Positions 1,573 to 9,179 of a stretch of 41,418 bases of DNA are shown here, one piece after another. Source of the DNA: Pirellulales bacterium (GTDB lineage Bacteria > Planctomycetota > Planctomycetia > Pirellulales > Thermoguttaceae). Location: NCBI GenBank assembly GCA_020846145.1, contig JADLEL010000008.1, positions 1 to 41,418 of the forward strand, given 5' to 3'. The translations under genes and the position numbers were made by a program. The notes beneath the pieces were generated by a model. That model worked only from the letters and a program-made list of their open reading frames with translations, did not search any database and was not told the origin of the DNA. How positions within the stretch are numbered: position 1 is the stretch's first letter; every line of letters starts with the position of its first letter.

Positions 1573-2406
1573 TTAACCGTAATAATCGTCCAATGTCAAC
1601 GGTCGATAAACAATTGGAACCACTCGAAGATATTTATCGAGAACTAGCAGAAACGATAAAAGTGCGGCAGGATCGGCTACGCAATAATGTGCGAAGTGAC
1701 GAATGCCGGCGCCTACGCCGATGCAAATCCCACCCATTTCACTAACGATTTCAAAGGCGGCATCGTCATTAGAAGCATCACCGGCGTAAAGCGGAAGCAA
1801 ATCATCTTGCCCAAGGTGTTCGAGAATGAACTTTACTGCCGTGCCTTTGTTCCAGCCCACCTCGGGAACGATTTCGATAGCTTTCGGGCCATCAGTGAAT
1901 CGCATTCGATCCAAAAAAGGTTCCGAAACAACGCTGACTTGTGATTGCAAGTCCGGGATTTGATTGATGGGAACATCCCGATAATGAACCGTCAGCCCTA
2001 TCATTTTGTCTTCCAGCCAAGCTCCGGGAAACTTGTTGATTACTTTCTGAAGTAGTCCGACAAGTGCGGAGATTGCCGGGATGGCATTCTGAAGGTCGGG
2101 ATGGGATATCAGCGTGCCACGAAGATCCAATTCCAAGCCTGAATTGCCGGCATAGCAGATATTCCGCAAAGATACGAGGGTGCGCAATTCGCTGAGTTCC
2201 CGACCGCTCAAAATGCCCAAGGCGATTCGAGATCGGCCGGCCAGACGTCGCAGCAAACGCCGCGTTCGCGGCATCATCGTAGCCAATCGGGGATGAGCGG
2301 CGAGCGGCACAAGCGTTCCGTCGTAATCGAATAGGAGCGCCAATAGTTGACCGCGCCGATAGCGGCTCATCATCATCGCCACAAGCTCCTCCAAGGAAGT
2401 AGTCAT
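1573..2406 (-). CDS. otsB: Trehalose-6-phosphate phosphatase
   Basis: A 277-residue HAD-superfamily phosphatase that would convert trehalose 6-phosphate to trehalose in the cytoplasm. Motif I is DYDGT at residues 27-31 (nucleophile Asp27), motif II is GILSGRE, the Lys motif is GWNKGTA, and motif IV is GDASNDDAAF. The start chosen is the ATG at 2406, which overlaps the otsA stop as ATGA; this indicates translational coupling. A longer reading frame upstream lies inside otsA and has no family similarity. Pairing with otsA gives the complete OtsAB route for a compatible solute or stress protectant. It lies downstream of a regulatory cluster (CsrA-receiver, TPR) on the same strand, but a gap of 367 bases separates otsA from that cluster. 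Confidence 0.95.
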   Translation of the reverse strand: MTTSLEELVAMMMSRYRRGQLLALLFDYDGTLVPLAAHPRLATMMPRTRRLLRRLAGRSRIALGILSGRELSELRTLVSLRNICYAGNSGLELDLRGTLISHPDLQNAIPAISALVGLLQKVINKFPGAWLEDKMIGLTVHYRDVPINQIPDLQSQVSVVSEPFLDRMRFTDGPKAIEIVPEVGWNKGTAVKFILEHLGQDDLLPLYAGDASNDDAAFEIVSEMGGICIGVGAGIRHFAHYCVADPAALLSFLLVLDKYLRVVPIVYRPLTLDDYYG

Positions 2407-3899
2407 GCAAGTTCTCCCACGGATTGTTGAACGTGAATCAATTTGCTTGCTTCCGAGAGTAACATCCCTGCCCAACGATAAACGTTGTTGTCGGCGATCT
2501 GCTGTTGCATGCGGCTCATGCGAAGTTCCTGCTCTTCGGGAGGCATGGACAAAGCCAAGTGAAGCCCTTCGGCAAAATCATCGATGGCATAGGGATTGAT
2601 TAATATCGCGTCGAGCAATTCGCGGGCGGCTCCTGTAAAGCGGGAAAGCACGAGCACGCCCTGGCGGTCGGTGCGGGCGGCCACAAATTCCTTGGCCACC
2701 AGATTCATTCCGTCGTGCAGGGAGCTCACCACGCCGACCGTTGCAATTCGATTGACGGCATGAATTTGCTGGGAATTGTGATGTTCATTGAGAAAAATGA
2801 TCGGCCGCCAAGAGTTTTGGCCGTGCCGCCAATTGATTTCTTCCACTTGGGCGCGCAAATCGTCGTTCAATTGACGGTAACTGGGAATGTGCGTGCGGCT
2901 TGGTGCTCCGATTTGCACGAAGCATATCTTTGCTTTCCACTCTGGATGGTTCGTAAGCAGGCGATCCACGGCGGCAAAGCGTTCAGGAATGCCTTTGGTG
3001 TAATCGACGCGATCGACGCCCACCAAAATGCGCTCGTTTTTGATTCCCCAAGTTTTTCGCAGCCGCCTTTCGACTTCTTCCAAATTCGAGGGTAAACACG
3101 ACGCAACCGCTTCAGGATCGATGCTGATTGGAAACGGCCGGACCATCGTGGTGTGCCCGCCGCGAGTCACCGCGAAATGCTCCATATCCACTTTTGCCTC
3201 CAAAGTGCGGTCGATCGTATCCAAATAGTTGTTGCAATGATACTGAATGTGAAAGGCCAGGAGGTCGTTACCCAGCATTCCGTCCAGAATTTCATCCTGC
3301 CACGGACAAACGCGAAATACTTCGCGATTCGGCCAAGGTATATGCCAAAATTGGGCAATGACGATATCGGGGCGGGCCTCCTTGAGCATCCGTGGAAGCA
3401 AGGCGAAATGATAATCCTGCACGAACACCACGGCGGGGCCTTCGCCCACTTCTTCCAGCACCGCGTCGGCGAATTTTCGATTGACCCGGCGATATTGCAA
3501 CCAGTCTTCGGAATCGAATTGCGGCCGTTTATAGACGACGTGGCATAACGGCCATAACGCTTCATTGGAAAATCCGTAGTAGTATCCTTGTTCTTCGCCT
3601 TTCGTAAGCCAGACGCGGCGAAGCGTGTATTCCGCCCTTTCGTCCGGAACGCCCACGCGATCGAATTCATCGACTACCGCGCGATCGGCGTTTCCGCTGC
3701 CGTGTGCGATCCAGGTTCCGCCGCACGCCCGCATAACCGGATCCAATGCCGTCGTTAAACCACTTGCGGGGCGCATGCAGCGTATCTCGTTCCCTTCATA
3801 AACGTGGATATAGGGTTCCCGATTGGCAACGATCAGCAATTTGGAACCGCCCAACCGTTCCTTGATCGTCTCTTCCAAGCGTTGTTTCGACCAAGCCAT
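2403..3899 (-). CDS. otsA: Trehalose-6-phosphate synthase (GT20)
   Basis: A 498-residue glycosyltransferase of family 20, predicted to join UDP-glucose (or another NDP-glucose) and glucose 6-phosphate into trehalose 6-phosphate. Recognisable motifs are VANREPY near the N terminus, GGTWIAHGSG, WHIPWPNREVFR, the RVDYTKGI loop and the C-terminal SSLHDGMNLVAKEFVA nucleotide-sugar site. The ATG at 3899 is preferred over a frame opening 33 codons earlier because AAGGAG lies nine bases upstream of it and the extra residues are unlike the family. It overlaps otsB by four bases. Length is slightly above the roughly 470 residues of the E. coli enzyme. No convincing promoter was seen in the 367-base leader. 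Confidence 0.96.
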   Translation of the reverse strand: MAWSKQRLEETIKERLGGSKLLIVANREPYIHVYEGNEIRCMRPASGLTTALDPVMRACGGTWIAHGSGNADRAVVDEFDRVGVPDERAEYTLRRVWLTKGEEQGYYYGFSNEALWPLCHVVYKRPQFDSEDWLQYRRVNRKFADAVLEEVGEGPAVVFVQDYHFALLPRMLKEARPDIVIAQFWHIPWPNREVFRVCPWQDEILDGMLGNDLLAFHIQYHCNNYLDTIDRTLEAKVDMEHFAVTRGGHTTMVRPFPISIDPEAVASCLPSNLEEVERRLRKTWGIKNERILVGVDRVDYTKGIPERFAAVDRLLTNHPEWKAKICFVQIGAPSRTHIPSYRQLNDDLRAQVEEINWRHGQNSWRPIIFLNEHHNSQQIHAVNRIATVGVVSSLHDGMNLVAKEFVAARTDRQGVLVLSRFTGAARELLDAILINPYAIDDFAEGLHLALSMPPEEQELRMSRMQQQIADNNVYRWAGMLLSEASKLIHVQQSVGELA

Positions 3900-4266
3900 G
3901 ACAGACTCCTTTTCCACATATTCAATTCGATTAAATGTTCGATTCGATCCAATGTATATCAAGCGAAGAAAACGCAGGATGCAGGCTGATCGAGACACAG
4001 AATCATGGCGAAATAATCTCGTAATTGCCGGGTAAGCAAAAAATGCTCTCGAACGAACTCATGGCCGCTTTGTCCCATTCGCTGGCGTTTATCCGCATAA
4101 CGGAGTAAATACCGAATACGATAACCGTGCGGAGTGCATCAAGCAATTCCCGTAAATTCAAACAGGCTCGCCCCGTCGCCCGACGCGATAAGCTGCAATC
4201 GAATAATGCGAAAGGTTCCGCGGTACTCATGGATTTAGGCCTTATCGTCGAAATATCCGTTGAAAA
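3900..4266. other. Intergenic leader upstream of otsA, no gene seen
   Basis: There is no supported coding sequence between the TPR gene and otsA. A 75-codon frame on the minus strand (4003-4230) has no family resemblance, poor codon bias and only a weak ribosome binding site. I searched the minus strand for a -24/-12 sigma54 site and found only a poor GG-N10-GC match near 4082-4095. The long leader could hold the otsAB promoter, but I cannot place it. Confidence 0.5.
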
Positions 4267-4907: not shown

Positions 4908-5255
4908 TCAAAGAAAGTAGTTTCCAAAAATATTTGTCGCTGCCCAGATCGATAATGCCGAGGGCACGAAAACATACATAAAACGTCGAAAGTCCTTCCA
5001 CGTCGATATTTGGCCGTCAGTCAAAGTACATTGGCCGGAACGCTGATCCACCCACCTTGCCAAAACCACCAACGCCAAAATGAAAAAAAACGTCATGTCC
5101 GTCCCCGAAAACCAGCTTTTATCCTCGGTCGTATTGCCGTACAAGATCGCGAAAAGAACGGCGGGACCGAGAAGCATCCAAAAAACATGAACTACAAGAA
5201 CATATAAGCTGTTCACCGCCTTCGATTGCGCGGTGTTTTTGTCTGTTTCATTCAT
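4908..5255 (-). CDS. Small integral membrane protein, unknown
   Basis: A 115-residue protein with three predicted transmembrane segments at about residues 17-41, 55-71 and 92-111, separated by short polar loops; the first 16 residues are hydrophilic and likely cytoplasmic. No family was recognised. The ATG at 5255 is chosen because a strong CCTCCTT complement (AAGGAGG) sits 11 bases upstream at 5267-5273; the alternative TTG seven codons earlier would put the ribosome binding site inside the coding region. It lies 55 bases after the CsrA-receiver gene and 80 bases before the TPR gene on the same strand, so co-transcription is likely. Confidence 0.7.
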   Translation of the reverse strand: MNETDKNTAQSKAVNSLYVLVVHVFWMLLGPAVLFAILYGNTTEDKSWFSGTDMTFFFILALVVLARWVDQRSGQCTLTDGQISTWKDFRRFMYVFVPSALSIWAATNIFGNYFL

Positions 5256-5310: not shown

Positions 5311-5916
5311 TCATCGTGCTGTCGTCGATCCTGTGTTTACCAAGTGAGATCGGCGGCAATGATGAAGAATTCGTGAAATCCGTTCGGCAAGACTCTTAAC
5401 CGAAATCGGTTTCTTTTGAAAATCGCTGATGTCGTAAGAACTGATGTTGAATAACACGGATGAATCGGTTCCATACGTGAGAATCAACACGGGTATTTTC
5501 GGCACATCCGATCCCTCATTCATTATGGCCAACACGCCGTCGCCTCCGCCCCAGGGCAGGATGGGTTCGAGGACCATCAATTCCGGCGAATATTTTCGAA
5601 GTTTCTCCAGACAATCCAAGGCATCTGAAGAAGTTAAGACCTCATACCCATGCTTCGTCAAATACTCTTCATATCGCGTTAAAAGAAATTCATCGGGATC
5701 AACCAGAAGCACGCGAATCGGCATGGATTCCTCCTTGGAAACCGGATCGCACTCGTTATTGATGCGATCCCATATTTCTTTTCGATGGACGGGAACCTGT
5801 GTGGGAGCGGCAATTCCCAACCGGACCGACTTGGCTCCGACACCCAGAACCTTGACGGAAAGTTGACAGCTAGGCATAACAATCTCCTCTCCGATCTTGC
5901 GACTGAGAACCAGCAT
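5311..5916 (-). CDS. CsrA fused to a receiver-like domain
   Basis: A 201-residue protein. Residues 1-60 are a complete CsrA/RsmE RNA-binding domain (MLVLSRKIGEEI; VKVLGVGAKSVRLGI; VPVHRKEIWDRI), with Arg6 and Arg45 matching the two RNA-contact arginines of E. coli CsrA (Arg6, Arg44). Residues 65-187 form a response-regulator receiver fold: acidic pocket D73/D75/E76, Thr147 and the K169-P170 switch pair. At the phosphoacceptor position (LMVLEP) there is Glu117 instead of Asp. CsrA normally blocks ribosome binding at GGA motifs; the receiver may mimic a permanently active form. There is no stop codon between the domains, but an excellent ribosome binding site precedes Met65, so a free receiver may also be made. 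AAGGAG precedes the first ATG. It is first in a unit with a membrane and a TPR protein and has a sigma54 site upstream. Confidence 0.9.
   Translation of the reverse strand: MLVLSRKIGEEIVMPSCQLSVKVLGVGAKSVRLGIAAPTQVPVHRKEIWDRINNECDPVSKEESMPIRVLLVDPDEFLLTRYEEYLTKHGYEVLTSSDALDCLEKLRKYSPELMVLEPILPWGGGDGVLAIMNEGSDVPKIPVLILTYGTDSSVLFNISSYDISDFQKKPISVKSLAERISRILHHCRRSHLVNTGSTTAR
5722..5736 (-). promoter_or_regulatory. Internal ribosome binding site and start (Met65)
   Basis: On the minus strand AAGGAGG (5736-5730) lies five bases before an in-frame ATG (5724-5722) at the start of the receiver domain. The sequence also contains a GGA core of the kind CsrA recognises. It could allow separate translation of the receiver, and CsrA could repress it. 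This is inferred from sequence only. Confidence 0.6.
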
Positions 5917-6009
5917 GTCGTGTACTCCTTCTCCCGTCGAGGAGCAATTTTGCGGTTTATTCGATGCTGTCTAGCCATTTCAGGCACTTCATTCGCTATT
6001 TGAAGAATC

Positions 6010-6024
6010 GCAAAGATTGCGCCA
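6010..6024 (-). promoter_or_regulatory. Predicted sigma54 (-24/-12) promoter of the csrA-receiver unit
   Basis: Read on the minus strand the sequence is TGGCGCAATCTTTGC. It matches the sigma54 consensus TGGCAC-N5-TTGC at every conserved position except one (G for A). Transcription would start near 5998, giving a leader of about 82 bases before the ATG at 5916. The nearby NtrC-family activator (7746-9179) retains the GAFTGA sigma54 contact loop and is its natural candidate. Confidence 0.65.
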
Positions 6025-6188: not shown

Positions 6189-7694
6189 ATGTGGAAAAGA
6201 GTTGTAGCTCCGGTGTTTTTTGTGGTGTCGCTCTGGGTCGTCATCAGCGTTTCGACCACCTTCTATATCAATTGGCTGTATGAATCGTATTCCAATGTTC
6301 TCCGGGAGAATGTAAGCTCAATCCAGGCAGCCGGGGCGATGCAACATTCGCTCTGGCGCCTTCAATCCGCCGTAAAGAACGCCGTGAAAAATCCTTCGGA
6401 GAGTGCCTGGAATACCGTGAGCGATTGGGAGTTGCTCTTTCAGCAACATTTATCCGACGCCGAACATACGGCTTTCACGGAAGAAGAAAAGAACATCGTC
6501 GCGTCCATACGCGACGGTTTCGGGGCGTATGTAAAGCACGCCCAAACGCTCAAGGAACGGAGCGAAAACCAGCCCAAAGCAGTAGTCCTCGAATCGGGAG
6601 AATTTACGAGTTTAGCTCAAAATGTCGCCGATCCTTGCAATGAATTGCTTGGACACAATAAATCATTGATGCTCCTTGCAACGACTTCAAGCAATCGACT
6701 AGTCGCTTCGTTTTATGTGATACGGCTGGTTTTTCTTACGGCGGGCCCCTTGATCGGAATAGTTTTCGGCATTTGGGTAGCGAGAGGTTTGCACCGTTCC
6801 ATATCCCAAATCAAAGTCGTCTTACAAAGCGCCTCCAGCGAACTGGAGCAAGAGGTCGGGCATATCGATATCCTTGCCGCCGACGACTTGACCGGCGTAC
6901 ATCGACAATTAGGGATTGTTTCTGGACACATTACCAAAGTATTGGAACAACTTCAGGAAACACGGCGCGAGGTCATTCGTGCCGAACGGTTGGCCGCTGT
7001 GGGTGAATTGGCGGCCGGAGTGGCGCACGAACTTCGGAATCCCCTCACTTCGGTCAAGCTTCTTATTCAAACCGAAGCACAGCGTCATTCGGCTCGACCG
7101 ATGGACGAGAGGGAGTTGCAAATCATCCAGGAAGAAATCGCCCGCATGGAAAGGACAATTCAAGGGCTGCTCGATTTCGCTCGACCGCCGGCATTGCGAC
7201 GAACCCGGCATGACTTACGGGAGACCGTGCATCGGGCGGTGAAACTTGTGGAAGGTCGCGCCAAACAGCAAAATGTTTCGATTTATGAAGATTTATCCGA
7301 TCTCCCTCTATGGATCAACGGAGATCCTGAACAACTGCACCAGGTGTTCGTCAATTTGCTCTTGAACGGGATCGATTCCATGGCTCAAGGAGGAACTCTC
7401 AATGTAATTGCTCAAGTATCTTCCAACGATAATACTATTTGTTGCGTATCATTTTCCGATGTGGGAATCGGAATTCCCGATATAATTCTCGAACGCATTT
7501 TTGAACCGTTTGTCACCACCAAGGAACGAGGGACGGGCTTGGGACTGGCGGTGAGCCGCCGAATCGTGCAAGAACATCAGGGGGAGTTAAAAGCGGCTAA
7601 TCAAAGCGATAAAGGCGCTGTTTTTACCGTCGAATTGCCATTGTCTTCGGAAAAATCCGGCGTTACTAAAGAACTGATCGGCACATTGTCCTGA
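6189..7694 (+). CDS. NtrB-type membrane sensor histidine kinase
   Basis: A 501-residue kinase. Transmembrane helix 1 is at about residues 6-28, followed by a helical sensor region of about 140 residues that should be periplasmic, and helix 2 at about 171-198 with a linker to 255. The DHp domain carries the phosphorylated His280 in AHELRNPLT. The ATPase domain has the N box (NLLLNGIDSM), G1 (DVGIGIP), F box (FEPFVTTK) and G2 (GTGLGLAV). No PAS domain is evident. It would autophosphorylate on a signal sensed outside and pass phosphate to Asp52 of the activator encoded 51 bases downstream. There is only a weak ribosome binding site (GAAAGACC). The sensed signal is unknown; location next to the CsrA-receiver and trehalose genes hints at stress, which is inference. 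Confidence 0.93.
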   Translation: MWKRVVAPVFFVVSLWVVISVSTTFYINWLYESYSNVLRENVSSIQAAGAMQHSLWRLQSAVKNAVKNPSESAWNTVSDWELLFQQHLSDAEHTAFTEEEKNIVASIRDGFGAYVKHAQTLKERSENQPKAVVLESGEFTSLAQNVADPCNELLGHNKSLMLLATTSSNRLVASFYVIRLVFLTAGPLIGIVFGIWVARGLHRSISQIKVVLQSASSELEQEVGHIDILAADDLTGVHRQLGIVSGHITKVLEQLQETRREVIRAERLAAVGELAAGVAHELRNPLTSVKLLIQTEAQRHSARPMDERELQIIQEEIARMERTIQGLLDFARPPALRRTRHDLRETVHRAVKLVEGRAKQQNVSIYEDLSDLPLWINGDPEQLHQVFVNLLLNGIDSMAQGGTLNVIAQVSSNDNTICCVSFSDVGIGIPDIILERIFEPFVTTKERGTGLGLAVSRRIVQEHQGELKAANQSDKGAVFTVELPLSSEKSGVTKELIGTLS

Positions 7695-7745: not shown

Positions 7746-9179
7746 ATGCCGAAATTATTAATCATTGACGATGAGCCAAATATCCTTTTTAGCATTGAAA
7801 GAGTGTTTCTGAACCAGGGCATTCAAGTGCTTAGCGCCCAAACGGCTGAAAAAGGCTTACAACTCGCTACTGAACATTCGCCGAATGTGATATTGTTGGA
7901 CATCCGGCTTGGCAATTCCTCGGGGCTAGAACTATTCGACGATCTACGCCGCATCGATTCTAAGAGCTTGGTCATTTTCATCACCGGACATGGGACAACC
8001 GATACGGCAATCGAGGCCATGAAACTGGGAGCTTATGACTATCTCGTAAAGCCCTTGGATGCCGTTCAACTTCGTCAGATTGTCGATCAAGCGTTCTCCG
8101 TCAGTAGGCTGATGCACATCCCCGCAGTCATCGATGAAGGGGAGCAACCCGAAGACAAGCCTGATCGACTCATCGGCAGCGGAGCCGCCATGCAAGCCGT
8201 CTGCAAGCAAATCGGAAGAGTCGCCGCGCAGGACGTCAACGTGCTCGTACTCGGCGAAAGCGGCACGGGCAAGGAACTCGTGGCCCGCGCCATTTATCAT
8301 CACAGCCATCGCAGCCGGGGGCCGTTTCTGGCCATCAATTGCGCCGCCATTCCCGAATCGCTCCTCGAAAGCGAACTTTTCGGCTACGAGCGCGGGGCAT
8401 TCACGGGAGCGGAACGGCGGCGCATCGGAAAGTTTGAACAAAGCCATGGCGGTACGCTCTTTTTAGATGAAATCGGCGATATGTCGCCCGAAACACAGGC
8501 GAAGATACTGCGTTTGCTTCAAGACGGCCGTTTCGAGCGACTTGGGGGAAGCGAATCCATCACCGCCGATGTCCGCATTATTGCCGCCACCAATCAAAAC
8601 CTGGATGCGCTCATTGAGCAGGGAAAGTTCCGCAAAGATTTGTACTACCGCTTGCGCGGCGTGACGATTCATCTCCCTCCCCTCCGCGACCGCTCCGAGG
8701 ACATCGCTGAATTGGCGCACTATTTCCTGTTTCGCTTCAACCGGCAATTGGGAACCACGGTGCAATCGATCGCCCCCGAAGCCTTGGAAATGCTCGAAAA
8801 GTTTGATTGGCCGGGCAACATTCGCCAATTGCAAAGCGCTATCCGAGAAGCACTGATCGTTTCCGTTGGTTCCACGATTCTGCGGGATTTTATCCCCATC
8901 GAGTTACATCAAGAAAAATTCGCCGATGCGGGCGATGATGCCGAAACCGGTCCTCTTCCCGATATTGATTGGAGCAGCCTTCCCGAATTGATCGAAAACG
9001 CAATCCTAAACGGTGAAAATAACCTCTACCGACGCGTCATTGATTACGTTGATCGGATTCTTGTTACGTTGGCGATGCGACAGGCCGGCGGCAAGCAGAA
9101 TCGAGCCGCGGAAATTCTGGGACTCAGTCGCGTGACGCTTCGGACTAAACTACGCATTCTGGGCAATTTTGAAAAATAA
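7746..9179 (+). CDS. NtrC-family sigma54-dependent response regulator
   Basis: A 477-residue activator with three domains. The receiver (1-120) has the acidic pair D8/D9, phosphoacceptor Asp52 (ILLDIRLG), Thr80 and a Lys-Pro pair at 102-103. The AAA+ domain (about 143-370) has Walker A GESGTGKE at 170-177, the sigma54 contact loop GAFTGA at 217-222, and Walker B LFLDEIGDM near 238-246, so it should be competent for ATP-driven open-complex formation. The C-terminal Fis-type helix-turn-helix is QNRAAEILGLSRVTLRTKLR. It follows its histidine kinase directly. A good -24/-12 site faces the opposite way at 6010-6024, in front of the csrA-receiver gene, making that unit the likely target. Confidence 0.95.
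   Translation: MPKLLIIDDEPNILFSIERVFLNQGIQVLSAQTAEKGLQLATEHSPNVILLDIRLGNSSGLELFDDLRRIDSKSLVIFITGHGTTDTAIEAMKLGAYDYLVKPLDAVQLRQIVDQAFSVSRLMHIPAVIDEGEQPEDKPDRLIGSGAAMQAVCKQIGRVAAQDVNVLVLGESGTGKELVARAIYHHSHRSRGPFLAINCAAIPESLLESELFGYERGAFTGAERRRIGKFEQSHGGTLFLDEIGDMSPETQAKILRLLQDGRFERLGGSESITADVRIIAATNQNLDALIEQGKFRKDLYYRLRGVTIHLPPLRDRSEDIAELAHYFLFRFNRQLGTTVQSIAPEALEMLEKFDWPGNIRQLQSAIREALIVSVGSTILRDFIPIELHQEKFADAGDDAETGPLPDIDWSSLPELIENAILNGENNLYRRVIDYVDRILVTLAMRQAGGKQNRAAEILGLSRVTLRTKLRILGNFEK

Follow-up and report, generated by a model that had tools for sequence, protein, structure and literature searches.

A CsrA domain fused in frame to a pseudo-receiver, with a candidate internal start, in a planctomycete and its relatives

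The csrA-rec locus

The DNA analyzed here, a stretch of 41,418 nucleotides from a Pirellulales bacterium (contig JADLEL010000008.1; hereafter, the window), carries a gene of 201 codons, csrA-rec, at positions 5311–5916 of the minus strand. Its reading frame runs uninterrupted from 5916 down to 5311, and a Shine-Dalgarno (SD) sequence, AAGGAG, precedes the csrA start (5925–5930, minus strand). Stand-alone CsrA has about 60–70 residues. In csrA-rec, a CsrA domain (residues 1–53; 5758–5916, minus strand; Pfam PF02599, 60.3 bits against a cut-off of 27) is followed by a linker (residues 54–67; 5716–5757, minus strand) and a receiver domain (residues 69–180; 5377–5712, minus strand; Response_reg, PF00072, 43.3 bits against 30.2). 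The in-frame fusion proposed in the preliminary description, which gave these coordinates without naming a strand, was therefore borne out, with no stop between the domains and both above their Pfam cut-offs.

Upstream of csrA-rec and divergent from it lie a histidine kinase gene (6189–7694, plus strand; HisKA and HATPase_c) and a gene whose domain matches identify an NtrC-type sigma-54 activator with a receiver (7746–9179, plus strand). Downstream, on the minus strand, are genes for a small hydrophobic protein (4908–5255), which has no family match and is 50% identical to the protein in the same place at locus L118; a remnant of a TreT-like glycosyltransferase (3962–4153; 66 aligned residues, 71%), an enzyme that aligns almost from end to end in L118, L122, L123, and L126; an OtsA-like glycosyltransferase of family 20 (GT20; 2403–3899) scoring below NCBI's curated cut-offs; and a trehalose-phosphatase scoring above the TIGR00685 cut-off (1573–2406). 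When the window proteins were compared by tblastn with 23 loci, nine of these (L118–L126), or ten loci with the window, carried the fusion or a receiver at the same locus. The kinase is divergent in eight of the ten, being cut short by contig ends in L119 and L123 and separated by a gap of more than 1 kb in L119 and L121; it is missing from L125, and the contig of L122 ends too soon to show it. The NtrC protein lies next to the kinase in four of the ten loci (window, L118, L124, and L126), and six (window, L118, L119, L122, L123, and L126) carry GT20 downstream with the same orientation. L118 (6728–7318), L122, L123, and L126 share, between csrA-rec (or the receiver gene) and treT, a conserved protein of 196 aa that matches no NCBIfam entry; it was not found in the window. 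At 11 other CsrA or receiver loci (L127–L137), there was no match to the NtrC protein, GT20, the phosphatase, or the small protein, and the kinase matches had only 24–29% identity.

A sigma-54 promoter-like sequence, TGGCGCAATCTTTGCG (GG-N10-GC; 6009–6024, minus strand), begins 108 bp upstream of the csrA ATG. Scored with what we take to be the sigma-54 consensus and its weights, a site of at least 18.5 out of 21.4 occurred within the 300 bases upstream in six of the ten loci, as against 2.8% of 300-base segments of the same DNA. The scores were 18.5 in the window, 21.4 in L120 and L126, 20.7 in L124, and 20.4 in L122 and L123, which belong to one genus; L119 (17.9), L118 (17.5), L125 (16.0), and L121 (14.9) fell below 18.5. 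The site of csrA-rec is not the best in the window, three sites in the 41 kb scoring higher and one equally. The consulted part of a survey reports an enrichment of sigma-54 promoters for the csrA group in Planctomycetia (PMC12316311). TGGCGCAATCTTTGCG is a probable sigma-54 promoter of csrA-rec. The GT20 leader, considered as a CsrA target, has an SD containing GGA before the GT20 ATG; this observation is uninformative. The preliminary description overlooked the kinase/NtrC pair, the probable sigma-54 promoter, and the trehalose genes, as well as a sister family with an intact receiver that is described below.

The two halves and the candidate start between them

The csrA-rec protein scored below both NCBI csrA equivalog cut-offs (61.2 against 73 and 59.7 against 70.1 bits), and its N-terminus is, by these profile matches, a CsrA domain and not a standard stand-alone CsrA. 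An AlphaFold2 single-chain model built with 88 aligned fusions as input had a mean pLDDT of 84.1, with low confidence (pLDDT under 50) in linker residues 56–63. The best 50 Foldseek matches of the fusion model all fell on the receiver half, with a probability of 1.00 for the PhoP receiver (1mvo); the CsrA half was recognized from its sequence, by Pfam and by alignment to CsrA (1y00) and RsmE (2jpp). L4, R6, and R45 of csrA-rec align with E. coli CsrA, Arg45 standing opposite Arg44, which is described as essential in the consulted part of PMC7366521. Across the 88 fusions, conservation was 83/88 for L4, 86/88 for R6, 88/88 for P38, and 87/88 for R45, and the CsrA half looks fit to bind RNA, as predicted from these residues. 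The window's genome contains seven CsrA loci. Inside csrA itself (5875–5892, minus strand), GGAGAGGAG lies upstream of another in-frame ATG (Met14) and probably arises incidentally from the conserved GEEI residues.

The receiver half was aligned to the RR468 and CheY structures, and residue conservation was counted over the 88 fusions, out of 97, that are shorter than 240 aa. The phospho-acceptor position is occupied by Glu117 (5566–5568, minus strand), and the metal-binding acids correspond to Asp73 and Pro74, the latter (5695–5697, minus strand) in the position of the second acid. Over the 88 fusions, the phospho position holds Glu in 46, Asp in 39, and another residue in 3; the second metal-binding acid is Asp or Glu in none of them, and Lys169 is kept in 85. 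A signature, PWGGGDGVL, follows the phospho site. The term pseudo-receiver denotes a protein recognized as a receiver in which key catalytic residues are missing, as defined in the part of PMC12632262 consulted. The half in question is recognized as a receiver both by PF00072 and by its Foldseek match to 1mvo, and it has neither the phospho-acceptor Asp nor the second metal acid; judged from the aligned residues, it is a pseudo-receiver, a receiver fold without key catalytic residues. The preliminary description had seen in the fusion a two-component style switch linked directly to mRNA binding; a conventional phospho-switch of this kind fails for the window's protein because its phospho-Asp is Glu117 and its second metal acid is Pro74, a position that is not acidic in any of the 88 fusions. 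In roughly half of the fusions, the phospho position is still occupied by Asp, and some of these proteins may therefore be phosphorylated. In receivers that lack the aspartate, Glu is the most frequent substitute; it can mimic activation, although in many cases additional changes are required, according to the portion of PMC4395418 covered.

At the border of the two domains, AAGGAGG (5736–5730, minus strand) is followed by the spacer AATCC and an in-frame ATG (5724–5722) encoding Met65, just as the preliminary description had noted. This ATG is the likely start of a free receiver of 137 aa, and the case for it rests mainly on relatives, since 21% of synonymous recodings that keep the residues KEES give an equally strong SD. 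In the 97-protein fusion set, which is biased toward the query and consists of related, non-independent sequences, a Met lies at most four residues before receiver beta-1 in 66 proteins (query included), as against 6, 6, and 4 proteins in the three four-residue segments that come before. When the set was thinned to below 60% identity, Met was present in 9 of 20 proteins, as against 1 and 0 of 20 in the upstream segments and 0 in each of six downstream segments. The residues before this Met could be encoded as an SD in 66/66 cases, compared with 47/289 internal Mets elsewhere and 24.9% of the remaining positions, given 5-mers and a 4–10 base spacing that we chose ourselves and proteins that are related to one another. 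The preceding residues themselves vary (KE, ED, GE, GD, and GG), and 19 of the 31 fusions without Met also have SD-codable residues there. At the protein level, the putative internal start exceeds chance.

At the DNA level, the duplex of AAGGAGG with the anti-SD has an energy of −11.4 kcal/mol, which was reached by none of 191 in-frame internal ATGs in 27 long open reading frames of the window (six-frame, at least 300 aa); −6.4 was reached by 6.8% of them. An internal ATG is present in 5 of the 15 fused loci with DNA (L152–L154 are identical, so that 13 are distinct), and 4 of the 5 have an SD: the window (−11.4), L090 (−9.5), L096 (−7.6), and L092 (−6.4), with L095 (−2.5) counted as having none. 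L118, the closest relative with DNA (62% identical), has no internal ATG, and two other ATG-less fused loci, L094 and L173, have a nearby TTG with a fair SD (−9.3 and −9.2, respectively). The internal ATG is in register with the start codons of separate receiver genes: among non-fused receiver loci, 36/47 place an ATG between −2 and +1 relative to the domain position matching Met65. The SD of the window is stronger than the best ATG site in 35 of those 36, only L191 (−13.0) surpassing it. The second start is a strong, although unproven, candidate from the sequence comparison. The two products envisaged in the preliminary description, the fusion and a free receiver, are plausible in that the internal start is kept in part of the relatives, but only 5 of the 15 fused DNA loci have the ATG. 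In CheA-short, likewise, an in-frame internal start gives a second, shorter product; that start trims the same protein, whereas the start in csrA-rec would free one of two fused families.

It had also been suggested that the CsrA part, by binding a GGA in the internal SD, represses synthesis of its own free receiver. A possible 19-base hairpin over the SD, GGTTTCC-AAGGA-GGAATCC (5725–5743, minus strand), would indeed expose AAGGA, and with it GGA, in its loop when folded in isolation, although this evidence comes from the window sequence only and is weak. The hairpin stands out only modestly (2.3% of synonymous recodings are as stable, and 60/1,039 among those with an equal SD), it is lost to a competing structure in one of two longer folds, and the three other fused loci with both ATG and SD have no ANGGA motif. 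We consider such autorepression improbable.

Fused, split, and lost forms in relatives

A protein search with csrA-rec returned 413 homologues, and among the 120 listed, 96 have both domains and 24 only the receiver. The same domain pair, which the preliminary description had proposed to seek in other planctomycetes, thus recurs, and the case it had set against the fusion, two domains that are always separate genes in relatives, does not apply. Independent assemblies with 71–93% identity (P0002–P0007) keep the open fusion, and therefore an assembly or sequencing error hiding a stop was ruled out. Where the source names the fused homologues, the name is almost always "carbon storage regulator," and the organisms given are Pirellulales (P0009) and Thermoguttaceae (P0039). 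Within the window's family, a relative at E ≤ 1e−20 is present in 12 of 119 genomes, a sporadic distribution: seven have the fusion (window counted), one has the receiver alone, and four have longer frames (239–276 aa) that carry a csrA-rec-type receiver without a CsrA match. Further CsrA-receiver fusions occur in other families of the same order and class. The scan of named genomes was dominated by stand-alone CsrA, with only L008 of 80 loci matching over both domains, and L009–L087 were left out afterwards. An extra C-terminal region of approximately 70–80 residues is present in some CsrA-receiver proteins (L173, P0098, P0108, and P0116), and a similar-looking region stands behind the receiver in the CsrA-less proteins P0109, P0117–P0119, and P0121.

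Other arrangements of the two genes were also found. In L151, csrA and the receiver are tandem genes; in L155, they overlap in different frames, with AAGGAG preceding the receiver ATG within csrA; and in L175 and L191, a receiver of the csrA-rec type comes first, with a separate csrA closely behind on the same strand. In L126, only the receiver is present, with an SD of its own and flanked by the same neighbors as csrA-rec, and in the tree it is nested among fusions (98/90 with P0017); the genome holding it (G382) has three CsrA matches, all on other contigs. Because L126 is receiver-only between the same neighbors and groups inside the fusions, the receiver appears to be the constant part of this locus and CsrA the variable part, with one loss verified in DNA. 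The tree comprised 91 rows, namely 33 hand-picked proteins of the 120 listed homologues and 58 genome loci, and gave 13 fusion or fission changes, at least 6 of them forced; these counts are rough because 118 columns serve 91 rows and few inner branches (31/88) are well supported. Where no DNA accompanies a receiver-only protein (P0011, P0016, and others), the gene may have been called from the internal ATG.

A sister family has the order CsrA, a kinase-helix-like stretch, and receiver (L111, L114, L115, L190, and L192; by Pfam in L111, L115, and L192); two members were located at L111:1501–2304 and L115:1501–2274. A search with L111 returned 2,751 homologues, and all 120 listed (P0122–P0241) have both domains and are often annotated as CsrA. 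In an alignment of 123 rows (these 120 with L114, L190, and L192), His76 and Arg79 are invariant and Asn80 is present in 122/123, forming an H-box-like H-x-x-R-N between CsrA and the receiver; the Pfam HisKA match is marginal (E = 0.016 in L192) and was not seen in L111 or L115. In the receiver, Asp151, Asp194, and Lys246 are invariant over the 123 rows. The sister family would, from these residues, be a phosphorylatable version of CsrA-receiver, and the phospho-switch that does not hold for csrA-rec may hold for it. The window's genome, at 94.9% completeness, yielded no CsrA-helices-receiver protein. L189 represents a third CsrA-receiver type, 180 aa long, whose receiver differs from the others and seems to keep the Asp of the phospho position.

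Interpretation and known systems

We read csrA-rec as CsrA joined to a pseudo-receiver, with likely two products, an mRNA-binding fusion and a competing free receiver, an interpretation to which we assign an even chance. The kinase and NtrC protein would set the amount of CsrA-receiver by transcription from the sigma-54-like site, not by phosphorylating CsrA-receiver. The fusion would bind GGA-containing mRNAs, and those of the trehalose locus may be among its targets. Its receiver would be an interaction or dimer module independent of phosphorylation, the Glu perhaps mimicking the phosphorylated state. Translation from the internal AAGGAGG-ATG would yield the free receiver, and the two products would then compete for receiver partners.

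The internal SD and ATG might instead be the fossil of a former separate receiver gene, the fused protein being the only product now. The tandem (L151) and overlapping (L155) genes of relatives speak for such a history, and the ATG is missing from 10 of the 15 fused loci with DNA, L118 included; we nevertheless find this reading rather doubtful, given the Met in 9/20 representatives under 60% identity against 0–1/20 in control segments, the SD-codable residues of differing identity (KE, ED, GE, and GG) in 66/66 cases, and an SD at −11.4 that is stronger than the best site in 35/36 non-fused receiver loci. The switching of CsrA RNA binding by receiver phosphorylation would be consistent with the adjoining kinase gene, the catalytic residues retained in the sister family, and the Asp and Lys kept in 39/88 and 85/88 fusions. 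It is unlikely for csrA-rec, in which Glu117 replaces Asp and, as in all 88 fusions, the second metal-binding acid is missing, and the more natural partner of the kinase would be the neighboring NtrC protein. Very unlikely, in our view, is a receiver that is the only working half, with CsrA as an optional, decaying appendage: L126 does retain the locus with the receiver alone, but the RNA-binding residues of CsrA are almost invariant.

The csrA-rec architecture is real and recurrent, and it is undescribed within the literature covered. No paper on a CsrA-receiver fusion or on the sister family was found in the consulted portions of that literature, whose scope lay outside subscription papers and preprints, and the word "CsrA" occurs zero times in the main texts of the papers on aspartate-less and pseudo-receivers (PMC4395418 and PMC12632262). 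The C-terminal extension of CsrA varies by taxon, as the consulted part of PMC7366521 states. csrA-rec shares its domain and RNA-binding residues with the CsrA/RsmA family (PF02599) and differs in that its extension is a whole receiver. With the aspartate-less receivers RitR and ChxR it shares a receiver fold without the phospho-Asp, whereas its output is CsrA, placed N-terminal to the receiver. The ANTAR regulators EutV and NasR, from the excerpts covered, are likewise proteins of receiver or sensor type whose output is RNA binding; ANTAR, however, acts on antitermination or attenuation, and CsrA is a different RNA-binding family. Two-component control of CsrA output would be common to csrA-rec and the BarA-UvrY and GacS-GacA systems, which, again in the excerpts covered, act via the CsrB/CsrC sRNAs, whereas csrA-rec would act via transcription and physical fusion. 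The sister family resembles csrA-rec in its N-terminal CsrA and C-terminal receiver and differs in its extra H-x-x-R-N stretch and its intact receiver acids, Asp194, and Lys246.

Tentatively, planctomycetes may have rebuilt the link between two-component systems and CsrA in single genes: a CsrA-pseudo-receiver and a competing free receiver, switched by kinase, NtrC protein, and sigma-54 and aimed at trehalose mRNAs, beside a larger phosphorylatable sister family that would be the first directly phospho-controlled CsrA. The internal start, together with the fused, overlapping, tandem, and lost halves, makes the dual-product idea directly testable, and the sister family, whose phosphorylation site is intact, offers an immediate way to ask whether phosphorylation can switch CsrA. 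Control of CsrA activity is exerted by sRNAs or by partner proteins, FliW and CesT being examples, according to the consulted part of PMC7366521; CsrA built into receiver proteins would add another control route for CsrA in planctomycetes. CsrA RNA binding would become a new output class for receiver proteins, and a two-component locus next to trehalose genes would have a direct effect on mRNA.
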